Shown piece after piece: positions 47,801 to 58,271 of a stretch of 64,000 nt of DNA; the first letter of the stretch is position 1, and every line of letters starts with the position of its first letter. Both the position numbers and the translations under genes were made by a program. The stretch comes from Lutjanus erythropterus (lineage: Eukaryota; Chordata; Actinopteri; Lutjaniformes; Lutjanidae): the NCBI GenBank assembly GCA_020091685.1, contig CM034605.1, positions 28,520,281-28,584,280 of the forward strand. Direction: 5' to 3'. Below the pieces are notes generated by a model, which searched no databases, was not told the origin of the DNA, and was given only the letters and a program-made list of their open reading frames with translations.

Positions 47801-50800
47801 GGCTGTGAAACTGAGCTGACATCAGGCCAGGACACCAAAGTAAAACTAGACAAGCCAAACTGCCTCCCAAAATAGAGCTTTTTACGTGATTTGACATTTT
47901 TGGTCGTTATCAGAATCAGCTGTGGTCTCAGAAACGGCAGAGGAGCTTTGTGGCCCTCGCAGGGAGCCATCTCAAGGCTCAGCAGTGCCCTCTGGTGGCC
48001 GATTGGTGGACAGTCTTCTTCCTCTGGCGTCTTCATCATCCAGAGAGTCGTGTCGCTGAACTCTGGTGTCACCTGTCATCATCTCACTCTTATCACCTCA
48101 CTTTGTTTTTTGTGCTTGTCCTCATTTCTGTGGAGACAACATGTAGTTAAAGGTTATCAGACGAGTCAAAAATAGAGCTGAATACATCACTAAATATTGT
48201 TCATTAAATATTTAAAGTGTAAAAGTTTGAGCTTTAATCTTTTCATTTAACCTCCAATCAGTTGGATGTAAAAAGCAAAGCAAACTTTTTTTTTTACTTT
48301 ACAAGCGAACACTTAATTTGTTTTACTCTTCATCTTTCAGTTGCTCATTTTATTTTGCAACTCATTTATTTTTCCAATCAATGCTCTGGAATAGAGCTCC
48401 AACTAACAACCAATTTTAATCATTTTGTTTAAAATGTTCCTTTTTCTGAGCCAAAAGTGACATCCTCAGAAGTCTTGCCGTGTCTGACCAACAGTCCAAA
48501 AACTCAAAAGATATTGTCTGTTATAAAACAAAAGTTGGGAAAAGCAGAAAATTCTCACTGCAGTGAAGCTGGAACCAGAGAACATTTAGAGTTTTTGCTC
48601 TAAAAATGACTTTCATTTTTGTAACTGATGCCAATTTAGATTCCTCTCGATCAAATAATTAGCTTGGCATCGCTAGACTAATTGGCAAACATGAATTTGT
48701 CAGGAACTGAATTAGTCCAGGCATTATCAAGACACGCATACCAAGATGCCTCTGGATGGACCTGGACAGACCTACAACCAATCAGAAAAACAAAACGTGC
48801 GACCAGATTCAAGGCTGGTGGAATTTCTGTTTTTAGTGAAATATCTCAACAACTTTTGGAGGGAGAGTCATGAACTTTGGTACAAACCAAAAATTCATGT
48901 CCCTGTAAATTGCAGTAACGAAAAAAATTATCTGACAGTGGCACTAGAATAAAAAAGGATCATCAAATACCTGCAAAATTATAACATTCCCATCAGTCTC
49001 AGCTGTACTTTGGAGTTAATGCTAATTAGCATATGTTAGCATGTTAAACTAGAGCCACTTTTCCAAACATGTGTTGGTTTGATTCAACTCGGTTTGACTT
49101 GGCACATCAGCGATTTACATTTCCATCACAGCTGCTGTAAAATGATTTCTTCACAATAAAAGTCTCTCGCTATTTTTCTATTAAAAGCTTTTAATATGAC
49201 GCTGACGCAAACTACAGAAATTCAGTTGGAAGCTACAAAAGTACCGAGTCTTTTAAAATCTTCTCCACAGATAGAAGTTGAATCTCGGCTTTCCGGTCAC
49301 TCAGTTAGGGGAAAAAACAAAGGCAAACTTGTCTACTAGCAGTGGGAAATGAGTGATTACTGGGTTTACTTGCATAAAAAAAAAAAAATAATGCTAATTT
49401 TGGTGTAAAAACTATTAGTCTCAGTCAGCTGAGTGGAGTTTAAAAGGAAGAAAATAAACCAACATATTTCTTTTTAGTCTCCATTTTAATTTACAACAAT
49501 ACTGTTTATGAATTTATCCAGTTACATTTTTGACTTGCCTGATAACCTTTATCTGCATTTTGTCCATTTTGCCCCTCCGTACATTTCAACTAAAAACCCA
49601 CATCACATCTTGGGACTAAATCAACGAGTTTTTGTCATTTTCCTCCTCCTCCTCCTCAGGACATTTTAGGTTCAGTCACCTCCCTCCTCCTCCTCCTCTC
49701 CTCATAGTTTGTGTGTTTTTTTTGTCTTCCTAACCTTCCTGTGTCCTTTAACCTTGACCTCTTGCTGCTCTTCCTCTCTGCCTAGGGTCAGTATTGACCC
49801 GGCCAAACGGCAGACGGCCAAAACAGGGCCTGCCATCCCTTCTACCCAGGGAGGAAAGACCCTTAGTAAGTCTTCTGCCCTCCAGTCTCTATCAGCCTGT
49901 CCTTCCTTCCTTCCTTCCTTCCTTCTCATCATCCTGCCATGGTTTTTTCTTCCTTTTTTTGGCCTGTCCTCATGTCATACATTTTTGATATTCTTTCCCT
50001 CTCTCTTTCTTTCTTTTCTTGTCATGTGTCCATTGAGAAAAATCGCCGTTTTTTTCAGATTCCCGTTTTTTCTTTCAGATTCAGGAGCGGAAGATATAGA
50101 GAGTTGTAGGAAGATGAAGATCTAGAGTAAGGGGCTGTTTCAATCCCTCAATCTCTCTTCTCAGACTGAAGTCTTGAGTGTCAGTTAATGTGGAGGGTCT
50201 CACCCCCCTCGCCCTCACCTCTCACCCTCACCCCTCTCCTCCTCCTCCTCCTCCTCCCCCCCCTCGGTCTTGTGATCTTCACAGCCTCTCTGACCGACCC
50301 AGGACCTGCTGTCAGTCCCGTCTGTTCACTTGTCCTCTTGTTGTCGAGTCTCTTGGGCTGTCGGGGAGTTCGGAGTCACTTCCTCCTCCACCCGTCCTGT
50401 TTTTCTGTTCTCCAGGCTGCAGTGCATGCTGGGAACCTGTCCTGTCAGAGGAGCAGGGAGCTTTACTGCTTATTTGCTTTTAACCTAATCTTTTGTTATA
50501 TTAGTCAGACATTTTTCCTTTTGTTTGTAGTGATTCAGGGACTGGTTTCCTGTTTGTTAAACCAGTAAAAGTCGTCATGAGTCAGTGTGAAGAGCAGATG
50601 AACACAGACGCACATTAACACCTCCTCTAAAAAGAAACACAGCTGCTCTGTGTTGGTTTACCGTCTTTAGGAAAAGGATTCATTTCTGGCATCCATGACT
50701 AATATTGAGCAATTATAGACAAAACCCTCTCACAGTTTATTTAATCTTGTAATATTTGATACGTCATCAAGAAATCCAGTTTAATAAGGAGGGAATAACC

Positions 50801-58271: not shown

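Follow-up and report, generated by a model that had tools for sequence, protein, structure and literature searches.

MARK kinases establish cell polarity and have tau among their substrates. The closest described system to the one considered here is the pair of MARK4 isoforms, in which MARK4L is made without exon 16 and MARK4S with it (PMC9355243). MARK4S, expressed as both mRNA and protein, is described as the predominant form in brain (PMC12027440), and this brain-enriched isoform has so far been treated as a MARK4 matter. As in the gene presented below, an exon ahead of the last coding exons shifts the reading frame of MARK4, yielding a homologous tail in place of an intact KA1 domain in the isoforms as described (PMC9355243). 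What KA1 contributes has been addressed in MARK2, where truncation of the domain is reported to leave activity in cells unchanged; protein cut at residue 745 is mostly still at the plasma membrane, and only the 2-575 fragment is given as fully cytoplasmic (PMC6890249). Skipping of human MARK3 exon 16 has been reported in breast cancer cells (PMC10020087), and that exon is not equated with the one described here. A more distant likeness is offered by dual-coding genes with a second start, such as TP53BP1 as described (PMC10193022), which also derive two proteins from the same bases; in mark3a, by contrast, the frame is picked by splicing rather than by a second start codon, and the kinase is common to the two products. 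Within the open PMC subset, no description was found of a short or KA1-less MARK3 isoform, or of a mark3a counterpart of MARK4S.

The locus lies in a 64,000-nucleotide stretch of the Lutjanus erythropterus genome (the window). It is considered very likely that two alternative C-termini of its mark3a gene are set by one frame-switching exon, and that this arrangement was inherited from the ancestor of MARK3 and MARK4. Judged by anatomy and sequence, the mark3a switch belongs with the MARK4S/MARK4L switch and would work like it. New here are the findings that MARK3 carries the switch in fishes ranging from cartilaginous species to perch, that the mark3b-like gene lacks it and tetrapod MARK3 apparently does too, that the stop codon is wired into KA1, and that the short frame appears better kept than the long one.

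Two readings of the same exons in mark3a

Eleven coding mark3 exons, from 5775-5823 to 35569-35672, precede the last exon common to all forms (41756-42028), and the first exons of the gene lie upstream of the window. The common exon, like all the exons discussed here, is on the plus strand; as placed by tblastn of annotated isoforms, it ends KLTSKLTRR in phase 2. Its acceptor is a tandem NAGNAG (CAGCAG, 41756-41759), at which one residue can drop out. Other variation was noted further upstream: about 59-63 residues of a putative optional exon, ending in CSP and present in annotated percid mark3a isoforms P0003 and P0104, are matched by tblastn at 36330-36506, and an alternative donor at 20549-20569 lengthens exon 20429-20548 by seven residues (VREDADN-like), as in annotated isoform P0104. 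Following the common exon, an optional 27-nt microexon (43778-43804, NMSFRFTKR) fits either ending, and its peptide precedes the short exon in 19 of 143 annotated MARK3-type short forms.

The frame-switching exon at 49786-49865, which is annotated in teleost mark3a, is 80 nt long (2 mod 3). It is entered after two codon bases and left after one, through an acceptor gcctag/GGTC and a donor CTTA/gtaagt, and it belongs to the short form only, where it encodes (R), 26 residues and (K). Two shared exons follow, one of 45 nt (54915-54959) and the last coding exon (57926-58271). With the 80-nt exon skipped, the bases of the short-frame stretch are read as 40 residues, 14 of them in the 45-nt exon, and the frame continues through KA1 to the stop at 58269-58271. 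With the exon included, 54915-54959 and 57926 onward are read as 39 residues, made up of another set of 14 residues from the 45-nt exon and 25 from 57926-58002, and end inside the last exon at a TGA (58000-58002) that is set by the KA1 codons T-W-S-M-R. KA1 is matched in the long model (PF02149, 71 bits), and the short model is without a KA1 match. Exon models, splice sites, translation and domain match thus all bear out what the original prediction had read from the letters of the window: the coordinates and phases of the 80-nt exon, an open shifted frame with its stop codon (58000-58002) inside the last exon, and a second, KA1-less C-terminus.

In the proposed mechanism, skipping of the 80-nt exon would give a long mark3a with linker and KA1, and its inclusion would cause the two shared exons that follow to be read one frame over, giving a 66-residue alternative tail without KA1. 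With its stop codon placed in the final exon, the short mRNA is expected to be spared nonsense-mediated decay, and substantial amounts of the short protein would be made. By analogy, the KA1-less form may be held less firmly at the membrane and may be under less autoinhibition. A hydrophobic-moment scan gave no clear amphipathic helix. In a scan for splice-regulator motifs, GCATG was absent within 300 nt of the 80-nt exon, TGC occurred three times within the final 25 nt of the intron, and nothing firm emerged.

Other MARK copies in the genome and the short-frame stop

A KA1 search of the fish's own assembly returned eight places. Those on C4 and C11 are mark4 genes, each with a short exon of 83 nt (2 mod 3; 80 nt in mark3a) that ends GTTA/gtaagt, a 45-nt next exon in the same relative frame as in mark3a, and a short-frame stop in the last exon. 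The anatomy of MARK4S is likewise seen in mark3a, with a 2-mod-3 exon between the KLTRR exon and the 45-nt exon. Since the mark4 genes share the exon, its phase and the shared exons that follow, the switch appears to predate the MARK3/MARK4 split. The copy on C14 is mark3b-like, its spacer being 87% identical to that of mark3a as against 48-69% for other copies; its 2.1-kb intron is without the short exon, and its shifted frame contains early stops. The copies on C3, C16 and C23 are mark1/2-like and have neither short exon nor tail. The short exon was accordingly found in both mark4 genes and in none of the four other full MARK copies. On C7 (L008, G000:C7:40057721-40061002), part of the last exon of the C4 mark4 gene is repeated beside a CA repeat and an N, and this partial copy is possibly an assembly duplicate.

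In all eight MARK places of the assembly the shifted frame runs into TGA at the same KA1 codons; the stop is therefore built into KA1, and its position is not independent evidence. In three of the four copies without the short exon (those on C3, C16 and C23, not C14), the shifted frame is even open up to this stop, with a sequence unrelated to the tail. The built-in stop lends some credit to the idea that exon inclusion serves to reduce how much full-length kinase is made, or just to strip KA1, and that the tail sequence itself has no job. A special tail would not be needed for truncation, because every +1 shift at this point runs into the stop at the same KA1 codons, and the tail alignment varies over much of its middle and its end. 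The core of the tail and the start of the short-only exon are nevertheless kept between MARK3 and MARK4 beyond the constraint imposed by the long frame, and a tail without a job is considered improbable.

Short tails in annotated vertebrate proteins

Of 1095 candidates in a search with the tail from the window, 479 proteins scored at E<=10. All of the best 120 are teleost MARK3, 3a or 3-like proteins with the short tail at the end (two carry hypothetical or unnamed as first name), and six of these, from Sander, Perca and Epinephelus, match at 100% identity across all 81 residues of the query; short isoforms with the identical tail include Sander vitreus X19 and Perca flavescens X16, both computed models. 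With 120 of the best 120 proteins ending in the short tail, the mark3a short isoform is already in the public annotation of many fishes, as computed models. In the short forms of the live-bearers Gambusia and Xiphophorus (P0006, P0009, P0010, P0012, P0015, P0018 and P0110), the 15-residue unit of the 45-nt exon occurs twice in tandem, which looks like a duplication of the dual-frame exon.

The second query, the human MARK4 short tail, matched 152 of 166 candidates at E<=10, and at least six mammalian proteins (P0121-P0126) over its full length at 100% identity. Among the best 120 matches, which were typed by tail sequence since source names vary and a few say MARK3 or SIK3, 104 keep the MARK4-type core intact, and the whole set spans mammals, reptiles, birds, amphibians, lungfish, ray-finned fishes and a ray. 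Sixteen MARK4 models among the 120 (P0142, P0143, P0211, P0218, P0227-P0232, P0234-P0236 and P0238-P0240) include the short exon and end KA1-like, in most cases with extra residues that bring back the long frame; inclusion of the short exon in MARK4 annotation is therefore not always equivalent to loss of KA1.

A constructed intermediate tail matched 205 of 244 candidates at E<=10. The best 120 of these include MARK3-type short forms from five cartilaginous fishes (Chiloscyllium, Stegostoma, Mustelus, Callorhinchus and Amblyraja) and from Latimeria, Acipenser, Amia, Anguilla and Albula, together with MARK4-type short forms from Narcine, Mobula, Carcharodon and Stegostoma, the last of which has tails of both types. 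No tetrapod MARK3 tail is found among the best 120 of these 205 matches, for which reason the short tail is probably not general to MARK3. The coelacanth tail scores E=4.3e-16 against 4.7e-11 for the weakest of the 120, and a tetrapod tail that was equally close would rank among them. In total, 267 proteins were collected, 143 with a MARK3-type tail core, 107 with a MARK4-type core and 17 with neither. The tail of the window and the MARK4 short tail share 15 of 19 core residues on recount, just as first reported, and the alignment to MARK4 short isoforms that had been suggested, run as a 27-row tail alignment, finds them homologous: six columns are invariant across the 27 MARK3 and MARK4 tails in the exon unique to the short form, and 15 further columns in the short frame of the shared exons.

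The names seen in these searches are those of predicted isoforms, with X or T numbers, which could mean that computed isoform models have spread from species to species with no real product behind them. Some killifish UniRef entries presumably derive from transcript assemblies. An annotation artefact is nonetheless very unlikely, given that the protein sequence of the short-only exon has been preserved in fishes from sharks to perch, and that a human isoform built in the same way, MARK4S, has been described (PMC9355243).

The tail is present in both genes, MARK3 and MARK4, in cartilaginous as well as bony fishes, and an origin of the switch before the MARK3/MARK4 split, as originally proposed, is supported by the distribution of the tail, by the tree described below and by the matching anatomy of the mark4 genes. 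The inherited switch would then be the MARK3 counterpart of MARK4S/MARK4L, kept by teleost mark3a and both mark4 genes, lost by the mark3b-like gene and apparently lost by land-vertebrate MARK3; the latter loss would account for the switch having been overlooked. If the common ancestor of MARK3 and MARK4 indeed had the switch and selection acts on the tail itself, a KA1-less kinase would be an old and deliberate state. The KA1 of mark3a is intact, whereas that of MARK4 is described as more variable (PMC6890249). With both of its ends preserved, fish mark3a allows the function of the tail to be studied separately from the KA1 drift in MARK4.

Probable selection on the second frame and identity of the gene

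For a measure of what the long frame alone would impose, the long-frame protein was held fixed and its synonymous codons were redrawn 20,000 times, with either uniform codon usage or that of the window. In 43% (uniform) or 57% (window usage) of redraws, no stop arises within the 39 short-frame codons, and openness of the shifted frame is thus weak evidence. Sequence identity behaves differently. The tail of the window is identical to a shark MARK3 tail at 28 of 39 residues, when the largest value among redraws is 22 and none of the 20,000 reaches 28 in either mode; identities of 27/39 to the coelacanth and 29/39 to the sturgeon MARK3 tail likewise lie above every redraw (largest values 22-24 over the three tails). 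The short-frame sequence is conserved beyond chance, and this is strong evidence. The claim that the shifted frame is conserved consequently stands for its sequence; its openness and its stop position, both largely expected, carry less weight than the original prediction gave them and were dropped as support.

A second line of evidence comes from comparison of mark3a with the two mark4 genes of the same fish over the first 22 codons, where the short frame is identical at 17/22 and 15/22, the long KA1-linker frame at 9/22 and 10/22, and the unused frame at 8/22 and 9/22. Changes at short-frame codon positions 1, 2 and 3 number 5, 2, 8 and 6, 2, 10 in the two mark3a pairs, position 2 being the wobble position of the long frame. 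For the mark4 pair, compared across 120 nt that extend three codons beyond the short stop, the corresponding changes are 3, 6 and 16, and position 2 is not the rarest. By one-sided binomial tests, uncorrected, the excess at position 3 has p values of 0.088 and 0.043 for the mark3a pairs and 0.0016 for the mark4 pair, and for the mark3a pairs the deficit of changes at position 2 gives 0.079 and 0.033; the changes are few (15, 18 and 25) and the two mark3a pairs are not independent. Taken as a whole, the comparison suggests that, of the two readings, the short frame has been kept better.

Conservation of the short frame merely through a conserved long frame would be a natural suspicion, as both share the same bases and KA1 dictates the stop, yet it can be set aside almost entirely: 0 of 20,000 recodings reach the identity to the shark, coelacanth and sturgeon tails, and between mark3a and mark4 the long frame is less conserved than the short one and no better than the unused third frame. 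A stronger proposal, to which about even chances are given, is that selection here has acted chiefly on the short frame, rather than on the KA1-linker frame, since before the MARK3/MARK4 split. The tail RRV..DP.K.Q ... LRE.GDLR.QVA.YLGI would then be a functional module that replaces membrane targeting, common to fish MARK3 and MARK4 and confined to MARK4 in land vertebrates.

The gene in the window is mark3, the identity originally assigned to it. Its kinase and UBA segment has a MARK3 chain as top match (576.5 bits, against 539.5 for the best MARK1, 535.4 for MARK2 and 528.8 for MARK4). In a tree of 25 such segments (27 rows gathered, with Amblyraja MARK3 and Acipenser MARK4 left out as lacking the core motif), it falls with Sander vitreus mark3a in a MARK3 group of 12 rows, which is split from 13 MARK4 rows with support of 100/100. 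An identity as mark4 or mark2, first suspected from the KA1 sequence, was ruled out by the kinase and UBA match, the neighbouring gene and the tree. The resemblance of the tail to MARK4S could still suggest that the gene is mark4 and the switch simply the known MARK4S, a reading that is contradicted by the same three results and by the two separate mark4 genes of this genome, and that is given almost no credence. The neighbour is a CKB-type creatine kinase gene on the minus strand (61246-64000), tail to tail with mark3a and continuing past the end of the window, the MARK3-CKB neighbourhood expected of a MARK3 gene; its top-matching chain (757 bits) is labelled creatine kinase only, followed by CKB-labelled chains at 739-742 bits and the best CKM at 724.
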